A DNA stretch of 64,000 nucleotides from Diaporthe sp. PMI_573 (Eukaryota; Ascomycota; Sordariomycetes; Diaporthales; Diaporthaceae). The notes under the pieces are model-generated. The model was not told the DNA's origin, did not search any database, and was given only the letters and a program-made list of their open reading frames with translations. Positions 25,619 through 64,000 of the stretch are shown here, piece after piece; within the stretch, counting starts at the first letter, position 1, and each line of letters opens with the position of its first letter. The DNA is taken from assembly GCA_021399435.1 (NCBI GenBank), contig JAJTUP010000022.1, positions 744,001-808,000 of the forward strand, given 5' to 3'. A program made the position numbers and the translations under genes.

Positions 25619-27227
25619 TCATAATCGAACCAGCGACGCCGCGAGGAAACCACACGCGAACAAGCCAGCTACCGCAGCAAAGGGAATCCCAGTCCATCCA
25701 TTCCCAAGGCTGAGGCCCCACCTGAAGGTTATTGTAAGCAGCGGGCCTGCAACGAGTCCTCCGATCGACTGCATTATTGCAAGGGCAGAATACAACAGTC
25801 CTGCTTCATCCTGATGGCAGAATGTAGTCACGAGACTGCGAGCCGCAGGCGTAAACCCGGAGCCCAAGGCGAAGATGGCAATACCTATCGCCGCTAGCGT
25901 TACCGCTGGAGCCACAGAGATGACCAGAGACCCCAGAGTAAAGAAACCAAGCGAGAAGCGACTGATGAGGAGATCTTTGCCCGGGGCACTCATTCCTCGC
26001 CTTTCCAGAAGCCTGTTGAGAGTGGGGAGGGCGACTAGGAGCAGGACAAGGTTGATGGCGGCTCGTAGTGTGATCAAAAGGCTTGCCTATTCGTGGAAAT
26101 GACGGTCAGAAGAGAAGCGTCATTTGATTGAAAATTGGTTACAGGGGCCTTACCTTTTCATACGTCCAATTAAACCGTTGATGTATGAACTGCAAGAGAA
26201 GACTCGTAGACTGGCGTCCCAGAGCAGAGACAAAGAATGCCAACAAAATAGCAACCACGTTGCGCTTCACGAGAGGTCGAAATCTTGAGGCCAAAGTAGA
26301 TCTTTTGGGCGGGGAGGAATCCGCGTGTGAAGGGGCTGGTTGTTCTCCATCCTCATTCACGCGGGTGGAACCTGGTGAAGTCTCCCTCTCAGGCGGCGAT
26401 TTAGGCAGAGTCTCTGGCAGAAATAGCAGAGGTATTGTGCCACTGAGCAATGTCATGCCACTGTACATAAAGTATGGTATCCACGGATCCGTCGCCATCA
26501 GCAAGGCGCTCAACGGCGTAGCCACCAGTTCCGAGAGGAGGCCGCATGCGGTCAGGAGGAAGAAAAGGCCTGCTCTCTGCTGTGGAAGGGCGACGTCGGC
26601 CACGACGAGGAAAACCATGGACCCAGCAACAGCATCGCCCCCGCCCACCAGGAGAGCGGCCGATGACAACCAGATGGAACGCGGGTTGATCAAGTCCGGG
26701 TACCAAAGAACGATCTTGGAGACGACATCCTGCAGAAGGGCCCCTAGTATCGCCAGAAGGAGGACGGGGCGTCGGCCGTAGCGGTCTGCGAGGATGCCGA
26801 ACGGGATGGCGACGATAAGGCCCGGCAGGCGGTTGAATGTGTTGAGCATCTGGGCCACAGTCGCGAGCTCAGACTGGACGGGCCCAATGGTGCAGTCGGG
26901 GTCGCCTGGAGCAGTGCCGGCCGCGGCGGTGTAGTAGCGGCTGCAGATGATGCCCTCGAGGATTTTCGTCTGTGGCGCCTCCAGGAAGAAGCCGGCGACT
27001 GATGTGGGTCAGTCACCTGCCACGGAGCCTAAAGTGTTGCATTTTTGGAGCAATCCAAATCATGAAAGACGGGGATCCGTGGGAGGAGATGAGTGATGCT
27101 TACGGTCCACCAGGATCACCATGATGAAGGTCGTGGTGACAACACGGCGTTTGTAGGCCGTGTCAGCGTCACCGGCGCCGCGCCTGGGACGCAGCAAGGG
27201 CGTCCCTTCGCCGCTTGCACCTGTCAT
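25619..27227 (-). CDS. MFS transporter
   Basis: Three exons (27227..27104, 26998..26154, 26086..25619) give 478 aa. The first ATG is at 27227; the frame extends upstream only with GTG. Joins give VILVD-LAGFFLEAPQTKILEGIICSRYY and the N-W-T-Y-E-K/A-S-L-L-I-T-L-R-A-A stretch. The loop between helices 2 and 3 reads GILADYGRR-like (PFGILADRYGRRPVLL), the classic MFS signature. About 11-12 hydrophobic helices are visible with a central Pro/Ser/Glu-rich cytosolic loop (about residues 250-290). It resembles fungal efflux-type MFS proteins with an ICRYY-like first loop; the substrate is unknown. Intron 1 is a copy of the introner-like family described at 26999-27103. Confidence 0.85.
26999..27103 (-). 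repeat. Introner-like intron, copy A
   Basis: This 105-nt phase-1 intron of the MFS gene begins GTAAGCATCACTCATCTCC and ends in ACATCAG. Core pieces shared with four other introns here are GGATCCCCGTCTTTCATG, TTGGATTG, ACTTTAGG and GTGGCAGGTGACTGAC. Arms CCACGGATCC (27082..27073) and GGCTCCGTGG (27029..27020) are inverted repeats with one mismatch. Confidence 0.85.
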
Positions 27228-29687
27228 ATTTGTTGGGTCAGTGTTCGCGTGGTGCGGACGAAGCACGGAAGATATTGTCGTGGGAGCCGTTCAGAGACGG
27301 TGGTCACTTCATTCTAATTCTGGTCCGAGGGATCTGGTATCACTTGGTCACACCAACTGTCCAGGGAACAGTGGCAGGCCAGGCCTGATAGGGGGGGTGG
27401 ACTAAAGTCTCCGAGAGTAAGCCAGCGTTGAAATTTCCCCCGGCCCCACATTTCTGCAGCTTACAGTAATCCCGCCGTCTGTGTGAACTCGACCAAAATG
27501 TGTTGTGCCGATAGGTTAAAATCCTGTAGGGTATTCTGTTATGCATTGCAACATCATTTGCTATTCTACAGAAGTGAGCATGAGTGAATCATTCCTTGCT
27601 CTTTCCATTTCAAAACATGGCAGCTCTATAATACTGTTCCATTCTTTGGGAGTCGCGATCCATTGAAGCGGACAAGATCTTAGAATGTTTCCCTTGTCAT
27701 AATAAGTATGCGTCTGAGTGACTCTGCGTCTGCACCTGCCCCGTCTCAACCTGGAACATGTCAATAGTGTTCATCTCAAGGAATGTCCGTATTGCCCAGC
27801 CTGGACCAGCCTGGAGCCTTCGGGGAAGGCTGTGCTCGTGTCCCATTAGTACATGGCTATTATCTAGCGCCTTTTGCATTACATGCCTTTTGTACTGTAA
27901 TGCCTGTGATGCGGTCCACGCTGCCGCTTTCGTGATTGACTAGGTCAGCCGCGCCGCACTGCCAGCCTCATGGGTCCTGAGTGGTATCTGGTCGACAAGC
28001 CTGAAGGTACCTTTCCTAACTGCCGGACAGTGATCAGGCAGTCGTGCGCACTGTAGCCCCTTTACAGTACTATCGTGACTGGTATCGGGTGGGGGCTGAG
28101 TAACCGGTTACCTGGCGGCGGAAAAACAAAAAGGTCGAGGGACGCTGACCAGTATCTACAGCTGCGATTGGAGCAGTGACTGGTTAGGAGGCCGCCAGTG
28201 GGGCGCTAGCCGCCTCCTGACTACCTTCATAGTCATCCCTCTTGTTGAGCTGCTCCTGAGTCTGGAATGGCCATAAGGCCATAGTGTGACCGTGCTAAAG
28301 TGAGGCGGGGTGAGTCTAAAGTGAGCTTCACCGAGTTTGACTGATCTCGGTCAAACTTGCCGATCCGGATAATCGGGATCCGGTTCCAAATTGGTACAAT
28401 ACGCATTGGTTCAGCTGTTTGTTCCCTGGCAATGGTGACACCTCCAGCCTGTCCTTTGGAGGACGATGCGCACATAGCATTCTTCCCTGTCACAAGCCTG
28501 CCCGTTCACATCGGTATATATGGTTGAAAGGGGCAGACGACATCGCTGATATCGTCCCCTATAATCTGTGCCCTGACGACAAGCCTCTCAGCAGTCTGCA
28601 GGGTTTTCCGGGCGCCATTGGGCTCTCCGAAGAAAGTGCCCGCATTCACCTCGTTAGATGTATTTCCGGCACATAATGCAAATCTAGAACACAGAAACTA
28701 AAGTTGATTTTGAGCAGCCAAAAAAACAGTATGATATATAGGAGGGACGAGTGGTAGTTAAGAAATTCTGAAAGGAGGAGCAACCTGGGGTCTAAATTCT
28801 CATGAAGACACTAGGTTGAAATGTTTTCTGAAGATGACAGTCCTCCCTATTTATGCTGATTCTTTCGACCACCGCAAGCATGATTCTCACAAGCGGACTC
28901 CACCATCATACTCAACACTAGAGTTCTCTTCTCGAAACCGTTGGCAGGTCTTCAAAGTGGCCTGTCCCCTGTCTTGGCCGTCCTGGCGTGAATATTGTTC
29001 ATGTTGGTTCATTCTGCAACGCCGAAAAAATCTTGTTGGTCTGTCTCTTGAAGACACTGACTTCCTTAATGGCCTGTGTATAGAGCAATACGGCCTGTTT
29101 GAAAGCTTTTCGTCGGTTATGATTGCAATCAAGACAGCATGCCGGTGCTATGATTCCTTCTCCCGCCCATCAGCGAAACGGCCGTGGCCATTGAGAACAA
29201 CCAACACATCTTCTCAGGTTCATATTATGGGCCTGGAACGACCCACAGTATACTAAATATAGAGCACGTTGGTGTTTGCCTCTTTTCTCACTGTCGTACC
29301 TTTCCCAACGAATTTGGCCGTGGCATAAATTTCACCACGAGCTGAGTGAGTGTTGGTGACCTGTAGCCGCCTCGTAGGATCGGTTCAGGATCATGGAATT
29401 CGGCACATGACTCGTTAGTATTTATGTTCCGTCTCACCATCTACCAACAACCAACTGCCCACGCTAAAAATGCTTCCAGGATCGAGGCACGTGCGAGGCT
29501 CAGGGATTAGGATAACCCTAACCCGTGAAGCCAAGCCTGATTTCTGTTTAAAACGCGCATCCACGCCTCTCCACTCAATTCTTGCTCTGCTCTTTCGTTG
29601 TTTTTACGATGAGACCACGAATCGCAAACACTAAGCAGTTTCCTTCGCTCTACGCCACTTCCTTTACACGCAAACGAAGACTTCGCA
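27228..29687. other. 2.5-kb gene-poor interval
   Basis: No recognisable gene is present. Only short open frames occur. The last 300 bp are the promoter of the kinase-like gene. Confidence 0.45.
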
Positions 29688-30889
29688 ATGAGTTCTCAAT
29701 CATCGACGGATCCATCGCCGCCATATTCTGCTCATGGCATGCGCACCATTACCGGTGATGACGCGTCTGAGGACGTTACAGTCTCAATGAGATATTACGG
29801 CAGACTGTTTGTCATCGATCTATCGGTCTCTAACTTTCACAACTCACCAAACGCTACCAAGGAGTACCTAAGGTACATTAAACCCCTTCTTCCAGACAAT
29901 AACGGCGAGCATGACGGCATTACGGAAACCGATATGTTTGACTGGTTAGCAAATATATTTAATCCTATCTTTTCTCAACTTGCGCCGGAGTGTCCAGCTT
30001 CTTTTGACCCGGTTAAGATTAAGAATAAATTATCTAAACCACTACTCTCCGAATACTTATTCCCTGAGACTTTTGGTTGCAGATTGGAGGCTAGAGATGA
30101 GGAGTTTATCCCAGTCTATATCGATAATCATGGTAGTCTTGTTACGCCACGCTCTTTTCTTGACTGCGATCTGTTGGATGAACTTGAGACCTGGGCACGC
30201 TTTATTGAGCCCTCGGAGCTTGAGGTTGTTTTTCACCGCCCCAAGCAGGCACTCTATCTGACGCCTGAGCTTGTGCTTGCCGACCTGGATAACTCTGGCA
30301 ACAAGACATTGTGCTTCTTTAAGCACTATGGTCTTGCGTCAGAAATACAAATAATGCGTGAGCTTACAGTACACAAGAAATTACACGAAGCGCAGTTAGG
30401 ACCAGAGGTGCGCGTGAGCCAGTTACAAGGGATCGTTTACACACAGGATGAAGATGCTACGCTGGGTCTACTTCTATCGTTGGTAGATCATGAAGAGGGA
30501 ATGACTTTACAATCTGCTCTATACGACAATCCACCTCAGCATTTAAGAGAACGTTGGGCAAAGCAGGTTAGCCATGTAAGTACCATCCTTCTCCTGCAGA
30601 TCCCCGTCCTTCATGTTCTGGAATGCTATAGAATGCATGACTTTAGGATCCACAGCAAGTAACTAACACCTAATAGACAGTGAAGGAACTCCATAGGGTT
30701 GGGGCTGTCTGGGGGGATGCAAAAACTGATAATATTCTCATTGATAAGGATAGTAACGCCTGGGTTATTGATTTTGAAGGTGGGTATACTGAAGGTTGGG
30801 TAGATGAGGACAGGGCTGGGACAAAAGAAGGGGACTTACAGGGGCTGGGGAAGATACTGGATCGAATCTTCAACACCTGTGCCGAGTAA
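29688..30889 (+). CDS. Fungal protein-kinase-like protein
   Basis: Two exons (29688..30575, 30677..30889) give 366 aa. The C-terminal third holds the catalytic core of a kinase-like fold: H-R-V-G-A-V-W-G-D-A-K-T-D-N-I-L-I-D, the counterpart of HxDxKxxN with Trp-Gly before Asp, followed by WVIDFEGG in place of the usual DFG. This arrangement is typical of fungal kinase-like and aminoglycoside-phosphotransferase-like expansions. No clear glycine-rich ATP loop is visible in the N-terminal 200 residues, which have no family match I recognise. It could be an active small-molecule or protein kinase or a divergent relative. The single intron is an introner-like copy placed just before the catalytic loop, between S-H and T-V-K-E-L-H-R. 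Confidence 0.75.
30576..30676 (+). repeat. Introner-like intron, copy B
   Basis: This 101-nt phase-0 intron of the kinase-like gene begins GTAAGTACCATCCTTCTCC. Shared core pieces are AGATCCCCGTCCTTCATG, TGGAATGC, AGAATGCATGACTTTAGGAT and a CTAAC branch-like site near the 3' end. Arms CTGCAGATCC and GGATCCACAG are complementary except for two positions. Confidence 0.85.
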
Positions 30890-33148
30890 GCTATTGTTGG
30901 TTCCACATTGAAGGTATACTGCTACAAAAGTGAAGTATCAAAAGCAATGTCTTTAATACACAACCCTCGAGTAAAACCATGCAAGTTATAAGATTAAACT
31001 CATCAAGGTAGGTTATACTGCTAATTAGGGTAGAAAGTGTGGCCACACATGTGCCTGCTGCTTGCCAGACAATATAGTTCTAACCCCGTTCCTTAGTTGC
31101 CTTTGCAGCAAAGACCACAATCCCGCAAATGTTTAAAGACTTCGAAATATTTCCTATCTATATACACCTGTATTGGTTGGAAGAGCTTGAGATCTATGCC
31201 AAAATGGACCACCCCTGATTATCACTTGTTATAGGTAGTGCCTACATTTTAAAAGATATTTACCAGTGTGCCTGCGTACCTGCACACAGCCATAGGCGAA
31301 CTGCGAGAATCTAGTAACCGGGCGACGAGCAGCCAGTTGATCGGCCAGAGGCTGCCCAGATGCCAGGAAACAGGCCTCCGACAATAGGTGGCGGCAGCAT
31401 AAGCCGGACGTTTTTGCTGGTGTATTTTGATCACCTGGTCTTGTTAAAACATAGTATGCAAGATTATCTGACTTTCTTTAAGCACCGTCCAGCGGCCTAG
31501 ATTCTCACTGTGCACGAATGATGAATTGGGCATAAGAATAGGTATCAAGGTACTTTGGGCCTGTTCATGCGGCCGGTTCCGCGTGCCTCATTTATCAGTG
31601 GGCTAGCCATTTAACAATGCACCTAAAACTTGATCACAACTCTTAATATTGTAAGTGCGGAAGCACTGCGCCGCACGTGTGCAGCTTGCTAGGCACAACC
31701 GCGAGGCCCTGATGGCCGCCAACAATGAAAGCTTGGTCTTCCTGTCAGTGACCCTGGCCATACAAATCGAGTACTCGCCTTCCATGCCACGAGAGCATAG
31801 CCAGTCACCCGGGCACCGATACTTTCAGAGGCAGCGACGGACGACAGGCTCTGCGAGGTCCGACAAATAAGAGACCAGGTGCCGGAGATGAGCAATGGGC
31901 GCAGCCGATGACGGAAAGCCCCGGGCGACGTGCCCAGCAAAGGGCCTGGGAGAAGCACGAAGCTCGCCTTGACGTTCTGAGCCCTTTCCGACCACTGGCT
32001 TGTGTCGCAACAGCTACCCGGGAATGTCAATTCGGCAGTACGGAACGGAAACAAAAGTGTAACGATATGGAATGCCTGGTGACTCGCCCCTGGGCGCTTA
32101 TGATACCAAGCAAACGATTCCTTCAGAAAACCCTCTGGATGGTCCTGGTTGATTCGAAACTGCCAGTCGACATGATGCAGGTAATCTGAGACCGGTTCGA
32201 AGAGGACTCCGGCGTTGAATCCCTTCATCACATCGGCGCCTCGACTTCAAGCCTCAAGTCACATTGAACACCCCAAAGCGGACAGGAATACTACTGCGAG
32301 GTTTGACTCCTCCCCCATAGAGGTCTTCCCCCGCCCAATGTAATCGGTGAGCCTATCAACAGCAATAGCGCCTTTCAGAACGCAGCGATGCGGCGCAGCA
32401 TGCTCGTGCCTCAACCAGAGCCGCCCGATTTACGCGCGGACCATGTAGCCTTGGGTTCATCCTCCACATGAAACTTCGGCCACCGCCTGCAGCCTTTAGA
32501 GAATTTGGTACGAATAATGCCTACCTACAAGCCAAGTTGCACTGTGAAGCGGCTTGGACAGAATGAGTGGCTGAAATACGGCCAAGCACATCAAAATTTC
32601 CCTTGACCTGGCCGCAGAAACGGCGTCTGTAAAACAATTGCCCCGTCTCGAATCCTGCAGCATCGTGTCATCCATTCGGGCGGTGTCTATCCCGCACAAA
32701 GTCATGTGCCACGTGATGGCCTGATTAGACCAAAACAAGAGTTGTTGGCTGCAACTTCCAGGTTCTTCAAACCTGAATAGTCAGTTTCACCTGCTATTGA
32801 ATCCAGACTGGGGGGGGGGGGGAAGCGAAAGAGATGGAGGTTAGAGTAAGAGAAAATGGTACTGAGAGGTGAGGGGAGGGTGCTGTGACACGAGCCAGAA
32901 GGTCGTGATATAAAAGGTCGACAGCACTCAGTGAATTCGAGTTGCAGGCACAGACAAGATGCGACACGCTTGACAACACAGCTAAACTCATCAAAACACC
33001 ATTGCAAACACTCAAAGTGACCCAAGGGTGGCACAAGTCCAACTTCAACGTTGTTTTCCCTTGCCTCTGTGTCTTCATCTCTATCACTTTGCCCACCCTT
33101 CTCGACCACCTGTCCTTCAGACTGCTAAACAACTTTCAATCATTCATA
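30890..33148. other. 2.3-kb gene-poor interval
   Basis: No gene with recognisable content is seen. A 180-codon open frame on the minus strand (31689-32231) has an atypical composition and no family features. A G-run sits near 32809-32822. The 5' part of the dynamin transcript lies at its right end. Confidence 0.45.
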
Positions 33149-35816: not shown

Positions 35817-36310
35817 GCCAGAAAATGGTGGGGGGCAAGCATCGACTCGGGCAATGGGAACACTTTCGATCCACGGTCCCATTCATCAAGATCCTCCAAA
35901 CACAGAGAATACATCGTCAGACGTATCGTGAGAAGCCTAGCAGTAGCAGCAGTGAGCTATAGGCCGTGGGATCCGAAGGTCAGTAGAGAAGGGGGGCACT
36001 GGGCACTCCGCAGAATGAAGTCTCGCCAAGCTTTATTGTAAGATAGGGTGTTATGCTGCGCGATGGTATCGTCCAGGATCGAGACTACATCTCTCAGCAG
36101 AATTTTGGAGGAAACGAAACGTATGGTTATTGTTTGACTATTGGAATTCAACGAATTGTTCCTGCACTATCTAGGTACGTATCGAAGTAACCGTGTGAGC
36201 TTTTGAGCCCCTCAGAACCAGAACAGAACAATCCCGTTGGTGGAGTAGCAGACTGGTTGATTTTGAACTAGTCTTCGATGGTGTCATTGTCTCTTTATGT
36301 CCTGGGAACT
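35817..36310. other. Convergent gap
   Basis: About 490 bp between the dynamin and permease stop codons. An open frame can be reached from 35904 to 36042 by splicing from the dynamin donor-like site at 35814; otherwise I see nothing. Confidence 0.4.
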
Positions 36311-38772
36311 TCATTCAGCCTCCTCATCTGGCACGCTTCCACGACATACAGATTCCATGGTTGCATCTCGCTTCTGCAAATAAATAGCGAGTGACAGTGT
36401 CATTGCGGCGCATATAATGAATACAACAGTCGTAGAGTTTCCCACTAAGAAGCGCGGTGCGTACGTTGTATTGTATGTCAACAACGGGATCCACGCATTG
36501 AAGGCGTATCTATAAACGGTATTTTAGTGTTGGTGCTGGAAGTACTGTCTAGAGCAAGCATGGAGAGTGCAGAGAAAATCAACTCACGCTACAGAATTGG
36601 TGGAACCAAGGATGATTCTTCTTTCCAGGCTGTCTCCGGCACAGTGCTCGTTGACCATCGTCTTTCTGGCAATCAGCTTCTTTCATGGGATTTGTCAGTG
36701 TGAAGGTAGACATACAAGAAATACAGGACCCGAGCCTTGCGCGAAGCTAGAGCAGTGATAGTCAGTGACAGCTTCAATCAAACACCCAGGTCAAAGTACC
36801 CACCCAGTGAGGTAAAAAGAGGCCCATTTGAGTCCGAATGGGACGCCGTCCCAGATAGCTAAGTTCATGGCGGCAAAGAAGCAGACCGTTAAGGAGAAGT
36901 AGACAATTGGTGCACGAACTTGCAACGAGTCGCTGGTCCAGCCGTAGCAAAGTGTGATTATAATGGTGATTGCATTTATGACCGTAGGATAGGTCTAATG
37001 GTGACGTTAGTCCTGCTACGGATCCCAAAGTGTTGCATTCTAGAACATTCCAAAACATGAAAGTCATGGATCCATTGCGAGAGAAAAGTGACACTCACGT
37101 TGATCTCTGGCACGGTGTATCTGAGGTAATACTAGTGTTAGAGTGGAAACATTCCAGGAACGGACTATGAAAACGTCTTACCGGTCAAGGCTTTTCAGCC
37201 ACAGGTTCATATAGCTTCCAATGTTCTCACTGCAGATGAAGAATCTGTTTCTTTCTTGTCAGACATTCGGCCAAAAAAATCCTCTAGGGCTCGACCTCAC
37301 GTGTAATAAGTCGTATATACCCAGAAATGCCATTTCCCAAGAATTCGCTTCGCCCCTCGCCACGTGAATGGCTCATCGAGTTGTTTGCCTGCCCGCTTCA
37401 TTCGATCGAGGGCGAGAACTTTCTCCTTGGCGGTCAGCCAATGGACGCGGCTATTGCTGGGCAGATCCGGTAAGGCGTAGAAAGCTAGATATATGTCAGC
37501 CATACGACGCCCACTCCGACCAAGCGAAGGTGATAGACCTACCCCATAGAGCCATTGGCAAAGTAATCACTCCATCAAAGACAAATAGCCATCTCCAGCC
37601 CGCCAGACCGTGAACACCGTCCATGCCTGTGTATAGGGCAGCTTGCTGCTTTGCGTGTCAGTGAAAGCCATCGACCGAAAGCGGCGGATATTTGGGTGCG
37701 AACCAGATACCCACTGAACATGGATCCCACAAACGCGCTTGCAAAGAATATGCAGGCTCTTTTTGCAAGTTCTACTCAAGCATATCAGTGATCTGTCCAA
37801 GGACAAAACTGCAAGACTTTATTCCCAACCTTCTTTTGTATACCAGCCTCCAAGAACTGTATGAACCGCTGGGTAGAATGTGCCCTCTGCAAGTCCGACC
37901 TATTACTTTCTTGTAAGTATCACGAGTTTAACAACCCACACCCCCCCCCCCCACAAAAAATAAATAAATAAAAGAGGCAGTCTTACCAAAAAACGACAGG
38001 CATACAACTGGTGAGTGTTCTTAACGGCAGAAGTTGCGAAGGTGACTATGACCCAAAACACTGCCAACATTAAGTCAGCGGCATTCCATAAGAGACCAAC
38101 AGATCCGTTCTGAACATAAAGATTTGAAAGTTCTAGAGAAACATACACTCCCAGCTCGGACACCATATTGAAAGCCGAACTACATATGCAGTCAGTGATA
38201 GTTCATGAGCAGGCACAAGTGGACACCAACCTCTGGTACAGATTATCTGTGACGGTATTTGTGACAAAACATAGCCTCTGTTGTCGTCAGTCGGCATGCT
38301 GCCTTTGTCAGATTTCCCAAGGTTGCTTTGCTCACATTGTCCACATTGTGGTGAACCTGCTGAATATTTAGCACGCCGTACATTTTGTTTTCAATTGGGC
38401 GGTCTCCTACGTTTGGTATTCATTTCCGACAACATTCAATTCCTCTTTCATTCCAGAGACATATGCATTAGCTGGAAAACTGTCAGTCTCAAGGTTACAT
38501 ATACTCTCTGAGTCCGTGTACAAACAGATATTGTTTGTGTTCAAATTCTTGCTGAAATAGGTGAAACCAGCCCAAGTGAGAATGAAAAAGTCGATCTTTG
38601 CAATGAACCGGCGCTCCTCAGGAGTCCTTTCGAAAGTGTCCCAGACGACTGCCCGGATCCTTCCGCGAAGGGACTTTTTCTCCACGGGGGAATCCCCTTC
38701 GTTTAAAGGAGATGGTGCAACAGGCGATTCTGACGCCGAGACGACGGCCAGTGGTTCATTTGAGTCTTTCAT
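36311..38772 (-). CDS. MFS allantoate-permease-type transporter (Dal5/ACS family)
   Basis: Sixteen exons give 496 aa with every phase closing: 38772..38526, 38471..38411, 38356..38336, 38277..38231, 38179..38147, 38060..37987, 37899..37830, 37771..37704, 37648..37543, 37484..37301, 37244..37182, 37120..37099, 36994..36804, 36746..36716, 36661..36588, 36509..36311. Rebuilt family stretches include [90 protein letters not shown] and [15 protein letters not shown], all typical of fungal organic-anion/proton symporters (allantoate, nicotinate, pantothenate and similar). It should sit in the plasma membrane with 12 helices. Several exons are only 21-33 nt. Intron 12 is an introner-like copy. It starts head to head with a dioxygenase 470 bp away, so uptake plus oxidation of one substrate is a reasonable inference. 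Confidence 0.88.
36995..37098 (-). repeat. Introner-like intron, copy C
   Basis: This 104-nt phase-0 intron of the permease begins GTGAGTGTCACTTTTCTC. Shared core pieces are TGGATCC, TTTCATGTTTTGGAATGTTC, AGAATGCAACACTTTGG and GGATCCGTAGCAGGACTAAC. The GGATCC arms and most flanking positions are complementary. Confidence 0.85.
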
Positions 38773-39241
38773 GGTGAGTCGTAGGAAATAATTACAAATG
38801 CATACGTTAGGTGAAAAAAAAGGCATATAGAGGATTTTCTAAGGACTCCATTCACATAGCACGCGAAGGCAGGAACCGCAATGTATTTATCGGTCCGATG
38901 CCTGCCCGAGACGCAGGGTAAGATGATAGAACTTCGCGTGTCGCCGCGAGCATCCTCATGATACCATCGATAAGAGCACCTCGCTCCTGAAATCGACGTC
39001 CGTAGTTCGCAGCTCGCACGGCAGTTCGCCGCTGTTGATTGGTGCGTTGTGTGTTCGATCTTGGCTCGTCTTATGTGGAGGCCATGACACCATCTGAGGG
39101 GTTACAGTGGGTGGTCCAGAGCAAGTGATCAACCGGACCTTTGGCTTCTAATAACAATACATTGATACTGGTCAGTTTATTTGCAGTCTGGGGTTAATCG
39201 AATTCGTTCCAAAAGTACAATTAAATTTTCCACATCTCACC
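38773..39241. promoter_or_regulatory. Divergent promoter between permease and dioxygenase
   Basis: The 469-bp gap separates the ATGs of two divergently transcribed genes and must contain both promoters. I see no clear TATA box. A few CCGATGC/CGATAAGA-like GATA cores are present (for example GATAAG near 38969), but single GATA sites are too common to carry weight. Confidence 0.45.
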
Positions 39242-40623
39242 ATGTCGCCCGTGAGGACGTCGCAAGACCTCCCCGTTTATGAATACCCAAAAGAGACCGC
39301 GGAGAAGCGTGAGCATATGAAAATCAGCATGAGCACGGAAACTGCTAACAAGTCCATAGTGGTGTGTGCGGATCTAGAGGCCCTTGATATCTCGAAGCTC
39401 GACCAGCCAGGCGGGAAGCAGATACTGGTAGAGCAGGTCCTCAGCTTCATCAACAGAAATGGTCCGCTGCAGCGAAATCATTCCACAAAATGACGACGCC
39501 AGCTAACGAGATCACGGCCAGGCTTCTTCTACGTCATCGGTCATGGCTTCACAGACGAGGAAGTACAGCGGCAGTATGCTATCTGCCAAGCAGTGCTAGA
39601 CCTTCCCCTAGACGAGAAGCTCAAGTATCAGTGCGACACGGCGGCCGGCGACTTTAGGGGATACAAGCCGCAGTCGACGGGCAAGCTGGCGGCGCGGGAC
39701 AACGACGAGCGGTACAACATTCCCAAGTTCACGCCGGAGCACTCCCGGCCGCATCCGCAGCCAATCCTCGACCACTGGGAAGAGATCCGGGACTTCTCGC
39801 GCAAAGTGCACGACGCGTTGCTACTCCCGCTGCTGCGGCTGTTCGCGACTGTTCTGGAGCTCGAGGACGAAGATTTCTTCGTGCGGCGGCACCGGTACGA
39901 GGCCGAAGGGCTCGAGTACCTACGATATATGCGGTACTTTCCGCGCCTTAGGGAGGAGGACGCCGCAGCAGAGAATATCTGGGCTAAAGGCCACACTGAC
40001 TACAACACGCTCACGTTCCTGTTTCACCAGCCCGTTGCGGGACTACAGGTGCAGACGCCCGAAGGCCGATGGAAGTACGTCAGGTCGCCGCGGGACGCGG
40101 TCATCGTCAACATCGCCGACGCGCTCGAGTTTCTCAGCGGCGGCTACCTCAAGAGCACAGTGCACCGCGTCGTACGCCCGCCTGAGGACCAGGCTGACCG
40201 CCCTCGGTTGAGCTTGATTTACTTCGCGCGGCCAGGTAGGCCCCATTCTTCTCCTTTTACGGTTCCCCGTCCGTCACGTTTTGGAATGTTCCAGCACGCA
40301 TCACTTGAAGATCTGTAGCAGGTGATTGATAGGTACTAGAGGCGAATATCATACTTGAGCCGGTGGACAGCCCGCTGCTGAAGCGCATCGGGCTGGGGGA
40401 GCGGAGCGAGAAGGAGAAATTTGCGCGCAAGGTGACTGCTGAAGGTATGTGGTGACAATATGGTCCCTTCACGGCATATGTGAATGTTTTGCTGATCTTC
40501 TATTTGTGAGTCGCAGAATGGGCTCGCGCGCGCATCGCCAAAGATCACCGGTTCCGCACAGGGGTCGTAGACCAGCGGGAAAAGGAGATCATTGCTGGAG
40601 TGGCTCAAAAGTATTATGACTAG
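39242..40623 (+). CDS. 2-oxoglutarate/Fe(II)-dependent dioxygenase
   Basis: Four exons (39242..39461, 39522..40235, 40340..40444, 40517..40623) give 381 aa. The N-terminal DIOX_N part ends in FINRNGFFYVIGHG, rebuilt across intron 1. The iron ligands are H231 and D233 in GHTDYNTLTFLF and H288 in STVHRVV; the 2-oxoglutarate-binding arginine is about 302 in PRLSLIYF. This is the isopenicillin-N-synthase-like fold used for hydroxylation, desaturation or ring chemistry on small molecules in the cytosol. The intron 1 donor is GTCCGC, which is weak. Intron 2 is an introner-like copy directly after LIYFARP. The gene is divergent from the Dal5-type permease and may act on the imported compound. A 42-T run follows the stop by 40 bp. 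Confidence 0.9.
40236..40339 (+). repeat. Introner-like intron, copy D
   Basis: This 104-nt phase-1 intron of the dioxygenase begins GTAGGCCCCATTCTTCTCC. Shared core pieces are CGGTTCCCCGTC, GTTTTGGAATGTTCCAG, ACGCATCACTT, GATCTGTAGCAGGTGATTGA. It is the most diverged copy in its arms. The 3' site is the AG of GGTACTAG, needed to keep FARP-EANIILEP in frame. Confidence 0.82.
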
Positions 40624-40660
40624 ATTTACCAGGAACGCTCAGTCAAGGAGAGAGCCGAGC

Positions 40661-40663
<3 letters not shown>

Positions 40664-40705
<42 letters not shown>
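40664..40705 (+). repeat. T42 homopolymer
   Basis: A run of 42 T lies between the stop codons of two convergent genes. Read on the minus strand it is an A-tail-like tract, but no retroelement body is evident next to it. It may be a slippage-prone microsatellite whose exact length is uncertain. Confidence 0.8.
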
Positions 40706-40706
<1 letters not shown>

Positions 40707-40887
40707 GAAATGTCGACCTGTCACATGGTCCGCCTTGTATGAAATGGTCTGGCGAGAGGATCGATGACGGGCAGAATAAGGGTGAAAGCTCACGAAGCTT
40801 TTCTCGGCCACCGTGCTATCTCGGCCATCAAATTTTCTTCAATAATCTGAGAACTCCTGCAAAGCGTGTCCACTGTTGTCCTGAGCA

Positions 40888-44052: not shown

Positions 44053-44307
44053 TTGGTCACTGGAACCACAATGTTGCAGCCCGTGCCAATAGGCCGCATA
44101 GATGATCATAACAAAACTTGATAGGCTTTAAAGGAGCCTGAAGGGTTTGTGGGACATGGTGGCCAAGCAATGTCTCGTAGCAACTTAGGGACAGCCTTGC
44201 AAATCTCAATGAACTTTGCCATATCTATACAAGCTCTACACACCCAGGCCATCTTCGCACCCATTCCTCTTAACCACAAGCCTTACAGCATCATATCCAA
44301 CAATGAT

Positions 44308-44550
44308 TCACAAGGATAAAGACAATGTCTCAAATTTGACCCGCTGGTAGATGCTCTGTATGATCTTGACTTGTTGCGCCCGTTCTATCTTGTCGCCCTG
44401 GTTGATGGAGAGTTGGTCGACCCATAACTGTGGCACACTTGTGCTCACGGCAACACCCCCGGGGTTATGATCCGCCAGCGGAGTGCTTCTCAAGGCCAAT
44501 AGTTTCCAACGAAGGTTACGATTGACTTTCAGCTCCTTCTCGGGACACAT
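44308..44550 (-). pseudogene. HET-domain fragment
   Basis: An 80-codon frame carries a short piece of a heterokaryon-incompatibility (HET) domain. The clearest part is QLWVDQLSINQGDKIERAQQ, then VKIIQSIYQR, the conserved lWiDxlCINQ...ErxxQVxxMxxIY block, with SIN in place of CIN. Frame-compatible residues continue a little upstream (SEGQCQTI), but the expected WG-containing N-terminal part and the rest of the domain are missing. I judge it a relic, not a working gene. Confidence 0.6.
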
Positions 44551-49188: not shown

Positions 49189-49236
49189 GGGGGGCAGGGG
49201 CCAAGGGGCAGGGGCCGGGGCAGGGACAGGGGGGCC
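49189..49236 (+). repeat. G-rich tract with G-quadruplex potential
   Basis: Runs of four to six G separated by CA, CCAA, CC, CAGGGACA and similar short loops repeat at least five times on the plus strand. The pattern meets the usual rule for an intramolecular G-quadruplex; the C-rich strand is the sense strand of malic enzyme about 1.2 kb upstream of its ATG. Confidence 0.6.
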
Positions 49237-50649: not shown

Positions 50650-50677
50650 GGATGAGATGGGATGAGATGGGATGAGG
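50650..50677 (+). repeat. Short GGGATGAGAT tandem repeat
   Basis: About three imperfect 10-bp units of GGGATGAGAT are arranged head to tail. This is a small purine-rich microsatellite with no visible function. Confidence 0.6.
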
Positions 50678-55800: not shown

Positions 55801-56956
55801 TCAATTATTGAGGACGAAAGGAACGTCTTGCCTTGAAAGCAAGTCAGTGTCTATAGGCTCTTACGGCATCGGAACGTGGGTACAGCATACCAGCTCCAGG
55901 AATTCCCTGTAACCAGAGCAGTGGTGATGTTTCGTTCAAGGGGTCGACCCAGCGGTTGTAGTCTTCCTCTTCCAACAACCAGTCACCTGATCGAATGACT
56001 CGACGAGTCTTCAGGCGTCCAAGGTCTTGGTCGTAGAGGACTGGGCTGAGAGAGGACTTGACCGCCTCCAAGTCTTGGCGTTGTCGGAACGCATGTTGTC
56101 TTTCGAATTCCACGAAGGCTCGCTGGCGGGCTTCGTATGCTTCAACGACATGGGCCAAGGTTACTGAACCGTCCATGAGTATTCTGTGCTTTTCGACGTT
56201 TTCCGTGATTATCCGAATGCGTTCCGCTGATTTCGGCCACAACGTCTCGAAGAGTACAGACAATCCTGTGGGGTGAATAATTTATTTTAATGAGTCACTT
56301 ATTATTGGAAATGAAGAAATCACTAGGTTCGTCCTTCAGCACACTATTAGGCTTGAAGATAGCCAGAAGTGTGGAGTAAAAGTCCAAGATATCCTGGTAG
56401 AATAGGCACAACAAGTGTTGAATTGGTTCTTCGCCCTGGAATAGCTCTGTGTACTTTTCGAAGGCGGGGAGGGAGTGACTGATCTGAGCCATCACATCAA
56501 CTAGCTTATCGAAGCTTTTGATATAGTTAGTCGCCGTCTAGTTGAAAGTCACGTTAGCTTGGCAGTGAAACACTTTATACTTTTTAGCTTGGGGGGGATG
56601 CTTACAAGCAGGAGGAATTTGATCGGTCCCTAGCTGAGAATATGTATGAGCAACTCTAACCGAGTATTCTGGAACGTATTACATACCCATATTAGTGCAA
56701 GGACATCAGGCTTGACTGTGACAAAGGTCTCGATGACTTCTCCATAGTGCCTCAAGCACTCGAGAAACGGTTCAATTTTGCGAAGGTTTCGGGTCGTTCT
56801 CTTCCTGGCCTGCGCCGACTGAATGGCCTCGGCAGCCTTGTATACCTCATCGATTGAAGTAAACTCCTCAAAATTGGCTGGAGTTCCCTTAGGGAACTGA
56901 GAAAGGAACTCCTTCTTGGCACATTCGAAAGTATCAGCGAGGACGTGAGAAGTCAT
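52882..56956 (-). CDS. NLR-like STAND protein: DUF7708-like, NACHT, C2H2 fingers
   Basis: Nine exons (56956..56687, 56629..56606, 56537..56345, 56265..55891, 55831..55256, 55088..54983, 54931..54674, 54598..54183, 54119..52882) give 1151 aa and all phases close. The N-terminal helical domain contains FLECLRHYGEVIETFV, then VKPDVLALIWGPIKFLLL, the pattern of DUF7708; its WGPIKFLLL is supplied by a 24-nt exon. The NACHT P-loop GIPGAGKT (about 283-290) is rebuilt across an intron, with TTFIVIDGLDEI as Walker B and VKVLISSRPE after it. The winged-helix and helical parts follow (ARQILALITCCVEPLS, FRFVHFSAREYLL). In place of ANK, TPR or WD repeats the C-terminus has two C2H2-type fingers (CGRPGC...HMRKH and CQDSEC...HLAQDH, about 790-850) and a 280-residue helical tail. 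NLR proteins act in fungal allorecognition and regulated cell death; the specific role is inference. Nothing suggests it is broken. Confidence 0.85.
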
Positions 56957-57805
56957 TTTGGGCTGGACTGATGAGGGTCATGAGAGAGGGAATCTGGATT
57001 GCGGAGGAGGGGCTCAGAACATAGGTGCAAGGCCCTGAATTTCGGGCTCTTCGAATTATGCCTAGCCAGAGCCTGATGACGGCATGTTGCGACTTAGCCA
57101 GGTTGAACAAGGTGTGTCACAAATTCGCTGCGCCTGCATATCTGCATTCAGCTATGCAAGGCGCGTTACTTTGTGTGGGGCCACGTAGCCATCGTTGGTT
57201 GATACAACACATATTCTGGGGGGTGTTGCAGTGGCAGCTCCACTGCATGGTATCGGATTAGGGTAGGTTGGTCACCCAAGGCAATCGTGACGGGTTGATT
57301 CGGTAACAAGTGCAGCACGTTTGTTGTTGTGTATTCAGAGGGCCCAAGTCTATGCTGCCTACTGGTAAGAATTGCAGTGAAAAAAAAATATATATAATGA
57401 CATCCTCATGCTTCCCTGTAATACTTTCAGCTTCATTTTAGAAACAAATTATGCAACCATATCTTCTATATCTCGTGCTCAAGGTACCGTAGCGATTGAG
57501 TGATGGGCATACAAGCAACACAGCCACCACCAAGAGAACATGCACAAGTAGAAAAAGTGCTCCTTCATCAGTCCTGTATGGTCTATCTTCACTCAAGTCA
57601 GTATTCATATGTCAATTTAAGTCACTTAAAGTGTTCCATCACAACCAGACTGTAAGGGTTGGAGAACTTGGGCCCAAACAGAAAGCTTGAACTACAGACA
57701 GAACATTTCGCACATTTCACAAGTTCTCACCCAAGGAGTGACAGCACTGTCTGGCATTCCTTTGAAACAAATGACAGTGCTGGATCTTCTCGCCACACCA
57801 TCGAC
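56957..57805. promoter_or_regulatory. Divergent region between NLR and helicase genes
   Basis: This 849-bp gap lies between the start codons of two divergently oriented genes. It contains an A8TATATATAATG-like stretch at about 57381-57400 and no recognisable coding sequence. Any shared control of the NLR and helicase genes would have to lie here. Confidence 0.4.
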
Positions 57806-60800
57806 ATGGAAGGCCCAAGTGTCAAGAGGAGAAAATTAGAGCAAGAAGAATGTGTAGCCCAGGGCTTTTCTGCAAATGATTGCGATGTGGGGGCGGAGCC
57901 ACTGACAGATCCATTACCAGAGTCTACAGCGCTCGATATTCATAGACATGACGTGTTATTTGGAATGGTGAGTTTCATTTTCAACATTTGCCTCATAAAC
58001 CATACCCACTAAACTTTTCAGGTCAACATTGAGGTGAAAACCTTAAGGCTCGATGCTTTGGGAGCTGACGTGGACAATTTCATCGAGGTCTCACTCAATC
58101 TTGAAAGGGACCAGCTCATCGCCCGCAACATAACAACCCAAGAATACGGAGAGGGCTATTTGGACGGCAACATCGATCAACGATTGTCCTTAGAGAGCTC
58201 TATGAACACCACAATGCGACACTCCGAGCCTGGCTAATCCGCAGCGATTCTTCGACCGGAAAGAAGCCAGTATACGAACTATTCATAATTCTCTACGGAA
58301 TGCACAGCCAGAAAGATGTCATCGGTGACGTACTGGATGGCGCGGAACTGTTTCTACAGGATCCCCCTGAGCAATTAAGTGGCGACCAATCTGTGCCATA
58401 TCTCAACCCCCATCGTCTACATAACACGGCTCCAGGTTGCGGAGTGACGAAGCGGAAAATTATATATGAAACAGATTCTCTGAAGCAAAGATTTCGAGAG
58501 GTCTTGGACTCAGCATGCGGCCCACAACACTTTGCTGCATGCCAGCAAAGCCCACGTATTTGTACGATGCTTAAACCGTAAGTTCATTATATGCTTCTAG
58601 ATCAGTAGCTTCACATCTAACCACACAGACATCAAATGAAAGTACTTTCCATGATGGTTGAGAAGGAAAGTGGTGAACCCAGTAGGAATGTGTTTGGCTC
58701 CCTGTGGAAAGTCATAAGATCATATGGCAGCGCCGAGTATGAGCCTTTCTTCTTATTTTTTTCTGCCTACGAAAGGGGTTGAGCTTGCCGATCTTGAGGC
58801 TAACTCCATTACTGCATAGATACAAGAATACTGTCACTGGATTCGTGCAGACCGACTTTCCAAGGCTCTGTTGTGGTGGTATTCTCGCTGATGTAGGTAA
58901 CTTCATCACTCTAGTGAGGGCTAAGAATCTCAAATATGGTGTAGTATATGGGCCTTGGAAAGACACTCACCGCAATTTCCCTTATCGCAACGTCGAAAGA
59001 CTCCTTTGAACTCACCGGGCAACGCCCTTCGCCTTCTCAAACGACTCTCATTGTGACACCCTTGTCCCGTAAGTGCTCGCGACTTTAGCGCAAATTTGGC
59101 TAATCGAGTCACAGTGCTTCAGACGTGAGAGGAACAGATATTGAGGTGAATATCGCCAAAATTGAAAAAGAATTGGAAGCCAGGCTAACCGGATACCAGT
59201 CATGTTCATCATGGGCATCTGTCGTATTACATATATTATGGGGCTTCTAAAGGTGACATCTCGTCTCTCACGGGCTACGATATTGTCTTGACAACTTACA
59301 ACACTCTTTTAATCGACAGGTCCAAAAAAAAGGGCAACTGATGGCGGCCTGGGCCTTGGCTCTATTGAATGGCAACATGTAATTCTTGACGAAGGTCAAT
59401 CAGCAACACTTTCCGAGATCCATCGATAAATTTACAATGGGCACTGATTTGATACTTTCAAATGTAGCTCATATCATTCGAAATCGGGCCACGAAACGGT
59501 TTCGAGCCATCCACGCCCTACAAGCTCGCTTCCGCTGGTGTCTCACCGGGACGCCGATCTTCAACCGAATCGAAGACCTGGGATCTCTGATGGGTTTCCT
59601 TGGGGCTCATCCATTCGACTCTTCCTCCTCATTCAATTCGCGAATTTCAAATTCAGTTCTCAAGGGAACACCGAATGCGTTAGAGACACTGCGAAAGCTA
59701 GTACATGCCACATGTTTGGGGAGAACCAAAGACTCGATTCATGACGAATTGCGCCTTCCTAGCCGTACAATTCTTGATGAAGCAGTACAATGGACTCAAC
59801 AAGAGCGGAGTGACTACGACGTGTTGAAATCCAGGTACGCCTCTATCCTCCACGAAGATGATGGGATAAATGTTTCTCGCCGCTTCACAGCGTCCATCAT
59901 GCAAACAATAGCGCGGCTACGACAATTCTGCGACCACGGACTCGATCTTCTGCCAAGAAAGGTACATCAATTATACGATCGTTTTACGACTGCCGACAAG
60001 TTTTCATGTAATATTTTGACGCGTTAGAAGCGTGTGCTGTCTGTCAAATCCCGATTGACATAGACAGTCAGAACCAGAATTCTCTCGACTGTGGACATTA
60101 CCTGTGTTCCCGGTGCCAGAAGAAGACGTCAGATGAGGAAACACTGATAGAAATAGTGTGCAAGATCTTCGATCAAGGTACAGCCAAGTCAGGCTCAAGC
60201 AGTCCCCATCCCAGCATGCAGCTTGCTGCAGCCACAAGCGGTTCTGTGCCATCATCAAAAGTTCAGAAATTGCTTCAAAACTTGATTTCAGAGCGTCAAA
60301 GCTCTTCCTATCAGCCAGTCAAGAGGTGCTCAATCATCCCTGATCTACTCAGTCACCTCATACGCTCACAGTTTTGACAGCGTCGTGTTCTCTTGCTGGA
60401 CCAAGATGCTCGATTTGATACAAAAAGCCCTGGTTAAGCAAGGATTGGAATTTGTGAGAATCGATGGTAGCAAGACAGAGAAAGCACGTAGAGAGGCCAT
60501 TGCTAGATTCAGAGGCAAGCCCAATTGTGGGATTCTCTTGGCCACAATTGGAAGTGCTGGTGTTGTCGTTCCAGACCTCGCCCCTGCATGAAGAAAATGA
60601 TGAGAACTGCGCATGGAACCCCACCCTAATATGGGTCGAAGTAGACTTCTTTGATTAATAACGCCGTTTTATAGACTTGATCTCACTGTCGCTAGCCGTG
60701 TGCATATCATTGAGCCCCAATGGATGCAGACTGCCGAAAATCAAGCCATAGATCGTGTCCATCGCCTGGGCCAAACGCAGGACGTTATTGCTAAGCGTTA

Positions 60801-61094
60801 CATAGTGGAGAATAGCATCGAAGAGGTAAGATCAGATGTTTCTAGAGAGCCTCAAGAAGCTAAAGCCTCTCCAGCATGTCTCGGCGGTCCAAGATAGAAA
60901 GGCTGCCTTTATGCGTCAGGCATTTGAGACCGATGGCTTGAGTGACGCTGTGAGCGCACGAGAAAATCTTCTTAAGGTACGAGTCCTAGCATTTGTCTTA
61001 GAACGATTACTAACATCTATGAGTATCTCACGCAAATGCCATAATTGGTCAGAAGACTTATCGCCTGTGTGAGCTGCTCTGGGCAGCCAACTAA
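57806..61094 (+). pseudogene. Broken SNF2/RING helicase gene (HLTF/Rad5-like)
   Basis: Spliced reading gives a Swi2/Snf2 ATPase of the HLTF/Rad5 class, in order: an N-terminal part starting MEGPSVKRRKLEQEE (a basic KRRK element); GGILADYMGLGKTLTA (Walker A, rebuilt across an intron near 58890-58960); ILDEAHIIRN (DEAH box, near 59380-59475); CLTGTPIFNRIEDL; a C3HC4 RING (CAVCQIP...LDCGHYLCSRC, near 60030-60120); SFDSVVFSCWTKMLDLI; and the final helicase block AIDRVHRLGQTQDV. At least four lesions interrupt it: a frame change between 58165 and 58200, TGA in place of the expected Trp at 59126, an A8 run at 59324 where A7 would keep frame, and a frame mismatch between 60557 and 60675. Introns near the lesions otherwise join well, so loss looks recent. 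Intact relatives act in DNA repair or chromatin remodelling in the nucleus. Confidence 0.75.
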
Positions 61095-62496
61095 TGCCGG
61101 ACAGAACTGGTCGAGATCGGAAATGCGGTTGCAGAAGAAATGAGTGATGAAATACAGATATCGGCAGCAGATACTGCAACGCACTGCCTATTCTGAGTGG
61201 TCGTTAATACCTTCTCCAATCTGAGTCTCATTTTCTGCTCTTACTTTCCACGGGTGCAAAGATCTCGTGATCAAATACGGGGACTACGTTGAATCAATGT
61301 GTCAATTTGAGTACGGGGCAGATCTGTTCATATGGACAGTAGCCATGAAACACAGTTATTCCAATGACATGCTCCTGTCAATCTGGTCATGCTGCTGGTA
61401 TTCGTTCAAGCTTTTCACTTTGCCAACCAAGCAATATGACAAAAGTCATCTTTCTATCTAGGACTTAAGAAATGCATTATATGTCTCTCAAAAAAAAGTC
61501 TATTCTTAATGTACTCTCTGCAACCTTTCTCTTAACACAGTCTCCATATGCCAAGCCCTGAGCTCGTTGTATCCGGGATGAACATATGGACGGAGTTCCT
61601 GTCCTAATGTGAAGGCAACAACCGTAGATGTAGCCTGAGCATTGCAGGTTGATTCATGTGGAGTATGCATCGAATCAAGTTGGAAAGTCGAAAGCCCTGA
61701 GGTCAATTATGCCTCTGGACTTCTACGGGGGCAGCCGAGAGCCGAGCCTGTTCCGAGAAGAAAAGGGGCTCCGGCCGGAACTGATCCTCCCCCACACTAC
61801 CGGGCGGGACTAAACCATGCGCTGAGGTGCTGCAATGCCCTACTCCAAGCAAACCTGATCTGTCGCTAGCGAAAATCTGCTCACAACCGGGAAAAGTGGT
61901 TACTCAATGGCTTCAGAACTACGGAGCAAGGTCAAAAAGGACGGAAACAGGAATCTGCTCTCGGGAAGTGTGGACGGCCGGTTGAGAACAGACACATGCT
62001 CTGCGATAGGGCAGGCTTTTCGTAGATCTTCGTTCACCAGGGAATCAGACTATACAACACACGTCATACGGTCGACTCTTGAGAGGTGACTAGGGTCATA
62101 CTGCAAGCTGAACATGATCGAGTCATCTTATTAGTGATGAAATCTTCAACCGAACGGCAGTGCCTGACAAGGCTGGCTTATACCCACTTTTTAAGAATAA
62201 AACAGGCATCCCCATAACGAACGTCGCGTCACTCCACCCGTCGGAACCATGAAATGATGATCTTTTATCTAAAAGATCGTGGCTTGGTGAACGGCGCATT
62301 TGATTGCGGTCGTGACGACGCGTCACGGCTCGGAGCAAAAAGTAGGAGGTTCGGATTTCCGACAGACAGGGACATATATATACGTTGAATTTGTTTCTCT
62401 TGGAACAGCGTTAGAACATTCTCTGCATCCGCCGAAATACATCTCATTCGCTGAGTGTTTCACACACGTTCTTTTGCCCTGCAATACAATTGCATC
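61095..62496. other. Gene-free interval before the esterase
   Basis: No recognisable gene is seen. An ATATATATA stretch at 62373-62383, about 115 bp upstream of the esterase ATG, is a plausible TATA element for that gene. Confidence 0.45.
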
Positions 62497-64000
62497 ATGC
62501 GTTCGGCCTTCCCCGTCCTCCTTGCTGGGACAGCCTCAGCCGGTCTCCTGCCGCCCTCGAAAGTGGTCCGGCAGGAATCCGCACCCACGGTGACGCTCGA
62601 CTACTGTACTCTAGCCCCTGCTGCCAGCAACACGACCGCGGGGTTGTACAAGTACCAGAACATCCGCTTCGCGGCCGTGCCCACCGGTGACCTGCGCTTC
62701 GCCGCCCCGGAGTGGCCTCCGGTCGAGACCGAGGTAAACGACGGGTCACTCGTCGACTCCGATGTCGACTGTGCCAGCACCGAAGACTGCTTATACATGT
62801 CAGTATTAATCTTCTCCTTCTACGGATCCCCATCTTTCATGCTTTGGAATGTTTCAGAACGCATCACTTCAGGACCCGTAGCAGGACTAACGTAAATATG
62901 TAGGGATATATATGTCCCTGAAAACGCCGCGAACAAATCTCTTCCCGTGCTTGTGTGGACTTATGGCGGTGGTTTTACCGGCGGAAGCAAGTCAGAGAAC
63001 ACGCCTGAGGGCCTGGTGAGTTTGCATCAAGCCGGAGTCTGTGATATGAGCTAATCTCTGCCATCAGTTTGATCTGAGCAGTGACTTCATCTTTGTCTCC
63101 TACAACTACAGGCTCGGGATAACTGGTCTCGCCAATAGTCCAACCTTGCTGCACCAGGGCGGTTTAAGCAACGCAGGGCTCTGGGATGTGCAACACGCTT
63201 TCCAATGGGTCGGCAAATACATTTCCAACTTCGGTGGAAACCCGGACGATATCACAGCTATGGGTTTCTCTGCTGGTGGCTCTCAGGTCCTCTTCGAAAT
63301 AACCCGGTTCGCCGGCCACGCAGAGCAGCTCTTCAAGCAGGCATACGTCATGTCTCCCGGATTCGTTCCAGGAGCCGGCCACGAACACGCCGAGGCCTTC
63401 TTCCTCAACGTCTCCTCGGCTGTTGGGTGCGATGGGGGTGACCTGACCTGCCTGCGCTCCGTCAACTTCACCACGCTCCAGGACGCATCCGACACTCTTG
63501 TTGACACCTATGCCTTCCAGATGCAGCCTCGTGTCGACGGTGACTTCGTCGCCGACACCTATGAGGCCCAGTTCTACCAGAACCGCTTCAACTTCACCGG
63601 CCCTGCTGTCATCACCCACGAGGAACACGAGGCCAACAGTCAGGCTTACTCCGGCGTTAACACCAGCGAGGACGTGTCGACGTACCTGCGCATTTTCTTC
63701 CCCGCCATCACCGACACCCAGGTGGAGGAAGCTCTCACCTTGTACCCCGAGGACGACTACGAGAGCCCTGGCCTGCGTTTCTCTGACATGAAGCAGCACT
63801 TCGATCTCACTGCGCACAACATGGCTTTTACACATGCCATGTCGAACCAGACATGGAACGGGATGGTCCAAATCGACCAGGCTACCCATGGTACTGACCA
63901 AAGCTACTATTGGTACAGCACCTGGACGCTGTCCTCAGACTCTACCACCACCACCTCAAACTCCTCTAGCTCTGCTGGTGGTGGTGCTGGCGGAGGCTTC
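62497..64000 (+). CDS. Secreted type-B carboxylesterase (partial, runs off the window)
   Basis: Three exons so far (62497..62798, 62904..63015, 63068 to the window end) give at least 449 aa with no stop. A signal peptide is evident (MRSAFPVLLAGTASAG). The alpha/beta-hydrolase landmarks are YQNIRFAAVPTGDLRFAAPE, DCLYMDIYVPE (rebuilt across intron 1), the oxyanion-hole stretch VLVWTYGGGFTGGS, and the nucleophile in GFSAGGSQ with Ser at about 206, where most members have GESAGG. A candidate His lies in ATHGTDQSYYW. The last visible residues are a Ser/Thr/Gly-rich linker (SSSSAGGGAGGGF), which may lead to a GPI-anchor signal outside the window. Several N-glycosylation sequons occur. It likely hydrolyses extracellular or cell-wall-associated esters. 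Intron 1 is an introner-like copy. Confidence 0.9.
62799..62903 (+). repeat. Introner-like intron, copy E
   Basis: This 105-nt phase-2 intron of the carboxylesterase begins GTCAGTATTAATCTTCTCC and ends ATATGTAG. Shared core pieces are GGATCCCCATCTTTCATG, TTTGGAATGTTTCAGAACG, CATCACTTCAGGACCC and GTAGCAGGACTAAC. Arms CTACGGATCC (62820-62829) and GGACCCGTAG (62872-62881) are inverted repeats with one mismatch. Confidence 0.88.

Follow-up and report, generated by a model that had tools for sequence, protein, structure and literature searches.

The origin of new spliceosomal introns is a long-standing open question, in which the ascomycete introners stand out as an outlier without transposon hallmarks. 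The introner literature for Sordariomycetes includes Hypoxylaceae, and the symmetrical sister introns of Hypoxylon (PMC8469720) come closest to the family reported here, which fits the fungal introner-like elements (ILEs). As far as the available text of that paper describes them, the Hypoxylon introns are short (93 nt in one example), imperfectly palindromic around the centre TTTCTAGAAA and seamlessly inserted, with neither a target-site duplication (TSD) nor a conserved exon pattern; they function on the coding strand only, and their sites are uninterrupted in other species. Our family resembles them in these respects, with GTTCTAGAAT or GTTCCAGAAC at its centre. It differs in the order concerned, which is Diaporthales, in the number of copies, with hundreds of core matches here against the 33-48 studied there, and in consisting of ordinary introns, with no [D1,2] stwintron among the copies examined. 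The likeness is one of description, not of alignment.

Near-identical introns that multiplied across unrelated genes in species-specific sets are also described for the Dothideomycetes as ILEs (Fulvia fulva and relatives, PMC4457414). As in our family, two elements can occur per gene and insertions lie near intron positions of other species. However, the Dothideomycetes are a different fungal class, and the ILE pairs given in that text are 145-626 bp apart, whereas ours are down to 1 nt apart. In the introners of diverse eukaryotes (PMC9860276) a repeated element is likewise inserted and becomes an intron, and the ascomycete families in the text of that study are without TSDs as well. These families are described there as having no TIRs, in contrast to the imperfect palindrome found here. 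In the main text of PMC9860276 the strings 'Diaporth' and 'Sordariomycet' are absent, although an overlap of its families with ours may exist.

In the literature searched, no paper linked introners with Diaporthales or Diaporthe, and the papers on Diaporthe with 'intron gain' appear to deal with other subjects. Introner-like elements themselves are already known; new in our family are the strong regional clustering and the 1-nt exons. Since the family is young and large and stands near a much-sequenced genus with many species, gain rate, insertion domains and mechanism become measurable by genome comparison, and the family lends itself well to the study of both the birth of introns and their choice of site.

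Five introns in the window and their family in the genome

The window, i.e., the whole 64-kb stretch of DNA that was analysed, carries five introns that an earlier note had described as near copies of each other in unrelated genes. Their coordinates and lengths were exact on re-reading (Table 1), and over 106 alignment columns they share a mean column identity of 80%. One correction concerns i4, which is a more degenerate copy, with the branch TTGAT instead of CTAAC or CTGAC and the donor GTAGGC. The splices join open frames and all three phases are represented; i3 has only a short upstream exon, and its phase was assigned by eye. Removal of i5 restores EDCLY-MDIYVP in the carboxylesterase. 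Four of the five host genes are supported by Pfam matches, to MFS_1, Kdo/kinase-like, 2OG-Fe(II) oxygenase and COesterase, whereas the name 'Dal5' used for the host of i3 is without a Pfam match (76-aa fragment).

Table 1. Introner copies in the window (i1 to i5, window positions) and the two adjacent introner pairs elsewhere in the assembly (L042 and L072, contig positions).
Feature	Position	Strand	Length	Phase	Host gene	Donor	Branch	Acceptor	Profile E	Remark
i1	26999..27103	-	105 nt	1	MFS transporter	GTAAGC	CTGAC	CAG	7e-23	
i2	30576..30676	+	101 nt	0	kinase-like (Kdo/WaaP-type)	GTAAGT	CTAAC	TAG	8e-21	
i3	36995..37098	-	104 nt	0	transporter-like ('Dal5' in the earlier note)	GTGAGT	CTAAC	TAG	1e-28	subfamily A
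i4	40236..40339	+	104 nt	1	2OG-Fe(II) dioxygenase	GTAGGC	TTGAT		1e-22	more degenerate
i5	62799..62903	+	105 nt	2	carboxylesterase				1e-28	subfamily C
L042	C138 near 818904									pair, subfamilies A and C, one T between
L072	C138 near 713500									pair, one C between

A profile was built from 76 copies, among them all five, and detects no further copy in the 64-kb window. The five themselves score E 8e-21 or lower, as expected of copies that went into the profile; next come three of the same introns as reverse complements and then noise from E 2.7, and the reversed window gave a best E of 1.7 as control. No known RNA family reached the gathering threshold in the window. A long T run lies at window positions 40662-40707, near the dioxygenase gene.

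The earlier note had proposed a search for copies throughout the genome. In the assembly (83,732,395 bases, 217 contigs) a 27-nt core had 264 matches and a 24-nt core had 280, with up to 3 mismatches in both cases, while the reversed core patterns used as controls gave no match in the same assembly. These hundreds of dispersed core matches in its own genome support the proposed family of introner-like elements. At least 211 copies were placed among the matches listed (ordered by mismatch, then contig), which is fewer than 280. The retrieved DNA contains 150 copies, and a second sample comprised 60 of the 131 remaining places. Copies whose donor, branch or acceptor was unclear were excluded (5 in the first set, 6 in a later set) and boundaries were set by rule; sizes of 98-112 nt were kept for the first set and the flank tests and 96-112 nt in later tests.

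In an alignment of 83 copies most have the same blocks from donor to acceptor and complete GT..AG ends, a few are degenerate, and both splice sites lie within the aligned element. Boundaries were assigned for 134 copies: the length is exactly 104 nt in 69 of them, the donors include GTAAGC (54) and GTCAGT (43), and the acceptors are TAG (103), CAG (24) and AAG (7), where D-type acceptors are uncertain by 3 nt. The CTAAC branch is found in 66 of 75 copies. For all copies, splicing was deduced from reading frames and homology, and their identification as introner-like elements is almost certainly correct. Subfamilies are distinguished by the donor (GTCAGT, GTAAGC, GTTCGT) and the tail, and clusters of the 76 copies have mean identities of 83-89%. 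Certain copies are almost identical, which points to recent copying, and members of one subfamily are spread over many contigs and unrelated genes.

Two variants were seen beside the main subfamilies. Copies of the D type (L022, L041, L052, L024, L081, L102, L121 and five others) have a tail ending in CCAGAAG or TAGAAG; their true acceptor is probably AAG, 3 nt past the first AG, and in L041 the use of the first AG as acceptor leads to an in-frame stop. Variant B' (L037, L040, L069, L073, L096, L107, L122, L136) has the donor GTAA[G/C]N-TC and a tail of variable length between CATACT and the final AG. The exon base at -1 is G in 8/8 of the B' copies tested without bias; L036 and L079 also belong to B', but were found by a pattern requiring that G.

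Symmetry, orientation and insertion sites

A family of self-copying introner-like elements is very probably the best overall explanation of these observations. The element would be an imperfectly palindromic spliceosomal intron of about 104 nt that copies into coding positions previously without an intron. The starting material would be RNA transcribed from a copy, or the symmetrical intron excised from it. In transcribed genes this would enter exon DNA seamlessly, through reverse splicing into the DNA or by filling a blunt double-strand break, and the inserted copy would then be fixed as DNA. As the host spliceosome would excise every new copy, many insertions could be tolerated. With respect to mobility, which the earlier note had proposed, recent copying is well supported by near-identical copies and by sites that are empty in relatives, whereas the route of movement is still a matter of inference.

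The symmetry is most evident in the consensus of all subfamilies, which has a perfect 15-bp pairing (TCCTGCTACGGATCC/GGATCCGTAGCAGGA) and an inner stem around TTCTAGAA and scores 34 against its own reverse complement (shuffles -3.2 +/- 6.3). In the consensuses of single subfamilies the palindrome has one or more breaks, and for single copies (n=76) the mean fold z is -1.67, with 29 of the 76 below -2 and weak symmetry in many. Compensatory changes were nearly absent: 30 copies compared at 23 pairs gave 3 such cells and the RNAalifold pairs gave none, so the need for an RNA fold lacks support. Taken together with the irregular single copies, this suggests that the symmetry acts, if at all, during copying, and it seems to decay later.

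All copies were said in the earlier note to run in the sense direction. According to a codon-usage score, sense is preferred in 114 of 135 copies and antisense in 21; at a margin >5 the same copies divide into 97 sense, 8 antisense and 30 undecided. In addition, 31/31 neighbour pairs within 3 kb are on the same strand (150 copies, some pairs sharing a copy). The copies are thus mostly in sense, and the claim that all of them are may not hold for every copy. On the two sides of the junction the best frame is the same in 103 of the 135 copies, where 45 are expected, and differs in 32. A cruder earlier frame test gave 28/78 discordant copies, many of which, although not all, were explained by the end of a gene, an intron close by or a short flank. 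A 4-nt shift of the donor had been suspected from the frame disagreement; it was mostly accounted for otherwise when inspected. Phase 1 is over-represented among the 103 frame-concordant copies, with 53 copies, while phases 2 and 0 have 26 and 24, respectively.

At the insertion sites no TSD was detected. Flanks were identical at k=4 in 0/75 copies (shuffled 0.2), with k = 2 to 8 examined and 7 D-type acceptors probably placed 3 nt short in this test, and at shifted offsets the best z of 3.07 over 338 combinations is within the multiple-testing expectation. A TSD that supplies a splice site, as in DNA-transposon introners with splice-site co-option, is absent as well. The AG|GY preference ascribed to ILEs in the text of PMC8469720 is not present either: AG|G occurs at 0/75 sites, and an AG|G proto-splice target was rejected. 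However, TA, TG or CA steps were found at 47 of 114 sites when 20 are expected, with D-type and B' copies removed and in both halves of the data. This bias, a post-hoc observation, indicates that the sites are not quite random, and a pure reverse-splicing model does not predict it. A palindromic CCT|AGG target, taken from the first 75 sites and written down before the second set, was only partly upheld in 54 new sites: position -1 is enriched in T, +1 in A and +3 in G, but C at -3 and G at +2 are not enriched. Equally high scores were reached by 17 of 144 relabelings, and the signal arose partly from the wrong D-type acceptor.

These properties bear on a purely DNA-based origin, in which a miniature palindromic (MITE-like) DNA transposon is moved by a transposase and carries good splice sites by chance. 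The imperfect palindrome is what a small DNA transposon would have, the weak pyrimidine-purine step bias would suit it, and most non-ascomycete introner families look DNA-based according to the text of PMC9860276. Nevertheless we regard it as unlikely, since no TSD was seen at any length or offset tried, antisense-scoring copies are few and opposite-strand neighbour pairs are 0/31, there is no signal of local hopping and the predicted palindromic target site was not clearly upheld. The scarcity of antisense copies together with the missing TSD favours an RNA-coupled copying route, either reverse splicing or break repair of the type put forward for the Hypoxylon introns (PMC8469720), and we consider such a route fairly probable, while the symmetry and the weak site bias keep a DNA route in play.

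Occupied and empty sites in related fungi

By its sequences the source fungus is a member of the Diaporthales, near Diaporthe, and none of the example fungi given in the earlier note. For the dioxygenase carrying i4 the nearest Logan sequences are 94% identical and the nearest named relative is Cytospora mali (87%); for the ATPase at L042 the nearest named proteins are from Diaporthe ampelina (87%) and D. ilicicola (83%). A comparison of orthologous sites, as suggested in the earlier note, found the intron absent at both loci tested (i4 and L042), based on unspliced ORFs that are 87-94% identical. That the Logan ORFs are unspliced is evident from P0001 and P0002, in which a different intron of the dioxygenase gene is retained and translated. 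The i4 site is uninterrupted (IYFARPEANIILEP) in P0001, P0002 and P0007, which are 92-94% identical, and also in the six more distant Logan ORFs P0004, P0006, P0008, P0009, P0011 and P0014. At L042 the site of the two introners reads as an uninterrupted FTSPEWLRALRRHLA in the unspliced Logan ORFs P0127 (89%) and P0128 (87%). The same residues stand at this site in the protein annotations for D. ampelina and D. ilicicola, but as spliced models these are silent on the absence of an intron. Because the unspliced orthologous ORFs are uninterrupted, the introns at the i4 and L042 loci are, on this sequence comparison, recent gains.

One ORF differs at the i4 site. In P0010 (93%) the frame is left at this position and the peptide matches a translated copy of the family (score 54; 0/300 shuffles as high), and a tree places P0010 together with our dioxygenase gene, with moderate support (84/81). 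For this reason i4 is probably a gain of medium age common to two lineages. It also means that at least one copy is probably older than one split, as would be expected if the introns were old and had been homogenised by gene conversion instead of being newly inserted. This is very improbable in view of the nine unspliced ORFs that are uninterrupted at i4, the two that are uninterrupted at L042 and the dispersal of a single subfamily over many contigs and unrelated genes.

The JGI metagenome protein P0129, from a related fungus, contains a diverged relative of the element, which as judged from the peptide lies no more than about a codon away from the L042 introner, and a second one where our L042 gene is empty (scores 98 and 76; 0/300 shuffles as high). 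Diverged relatives of the element thus appear to occupy, or adjoin, the same sites in other fungi. The element in P0129 is longer by about 40 nt (peptide-based) and open in frame across the whole insert. For subfamily A, a query with the read-through peptide (one frame, ORFs of about 124-395 aa) found three proteins only, among 5.8 billion, and these are identical to L017, L023 and L042 over 138, 137 and 291 residues, respectively. As only these near-self proteins were found, the young subfamily A looks confined to the source species or its very near kin.

Genomic clustering and predicted single-nucleotide exons

The copies are distributed unevenly over the assembly. Eight contigs with 8.0% of the sequence carry 116 of 211 copies (55%) among the matches listed, and 50 of 85 exact core matches, for which the list is complete. 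As these contigs were chosen after the counts had been seen, the analysis was repeated with hot contigs called from half of the copies. These contigs make up 9% of the sequence and carry 8-11% of the control genes, yet 53% of the copies in the held-out half. On the eight contigs lie 5 of the best 88 P450 genes and 11 of the best 117 kinase genes, and the density of neither gene class accounts for the clustering. Another copy is present within 2 kb for 41 of the 211 placed copies, compared to 2.0 +/- 1.9 with uniform placing. Neighbouring copies are no more alike than distant ones (75% vs 77% identity, 61 near pairs), and local hopping was rejected on this ground. The clustering looks instead like a reflection of receptive DNA or of survival.

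The same concentration would result from an introgressed or foreign compartment rich in introners, without any insertion preference. Apart from the high share of copies on 8% of the sequence, the subfamilies are skewed on the hot contigs, with 17/31 of A, 23/33 of B and 10/13 of C as opposed to 6/22 of the D/E type (36 copies are unclassified). However, the best-scoring P450 and kinase genes have an ordinary density on these contigs. One haploid fungus is expected to have three Rpb2-family genes. Only three were found in the assembly, with no sign of a second genome or a hybrid, and introgression is therefore rather unlikely.

At L042 and L072 two introners are separated by one nucleotide (Table 1), and at each locus an open frame depends on both complete introns as well as on that nucleotide. 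The frame of L042 requires the T (GAG-[A]-T-[C]-GG = E W), and the resulting tryptophan is present in orthologues. The frame of L072 requires the C (CAA-[..]-C-[..]-AG = Q Q); the support here is that the frame is open and that a Pfam match to an amino-acid permease runs across it. Both loci would therefore have a predicted single-nucleotide coding exon flanked by introners, and sequential splicing would suffice to process the pairs. A 1-nt exon between two introns has been described in CYP621A of Fusarium, as the first in a fungal gene (PMC12940212, 2026). For the Fusarium exon RNA support is reported, and its authors suggest a cryptic exon that rescues a lost base. The word 'introner' is absent from the text of that paper as available, whereas in our family both predicted flanking introns are introners. 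This suggests that the predicted exons of L042 and L072 differ in origin from that of CYP621A, and the two loci suggest a concrete origin for 1-nt exons.

Such pairs may be part of a more general non-random landing of the elements, seen in their concentration in small domains and in their recurrence at the same few bp, both beside introners, as in the two independent pairs 1 nt apart, and in related fungi, where the same codons are hit. Tentatively, a palindromic introner may break the DNA at its own edge and so capture the next introner, although we see this as a possibility with less than even prospects. If true, introners would generate single-nucleotide exons as well as intron gains in parallel. 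When the whole genome was scanned for pairs up to 30 nt apart, four places were found, namely L042, L072, one pair 20 nt apart and one that is probably due to chance.
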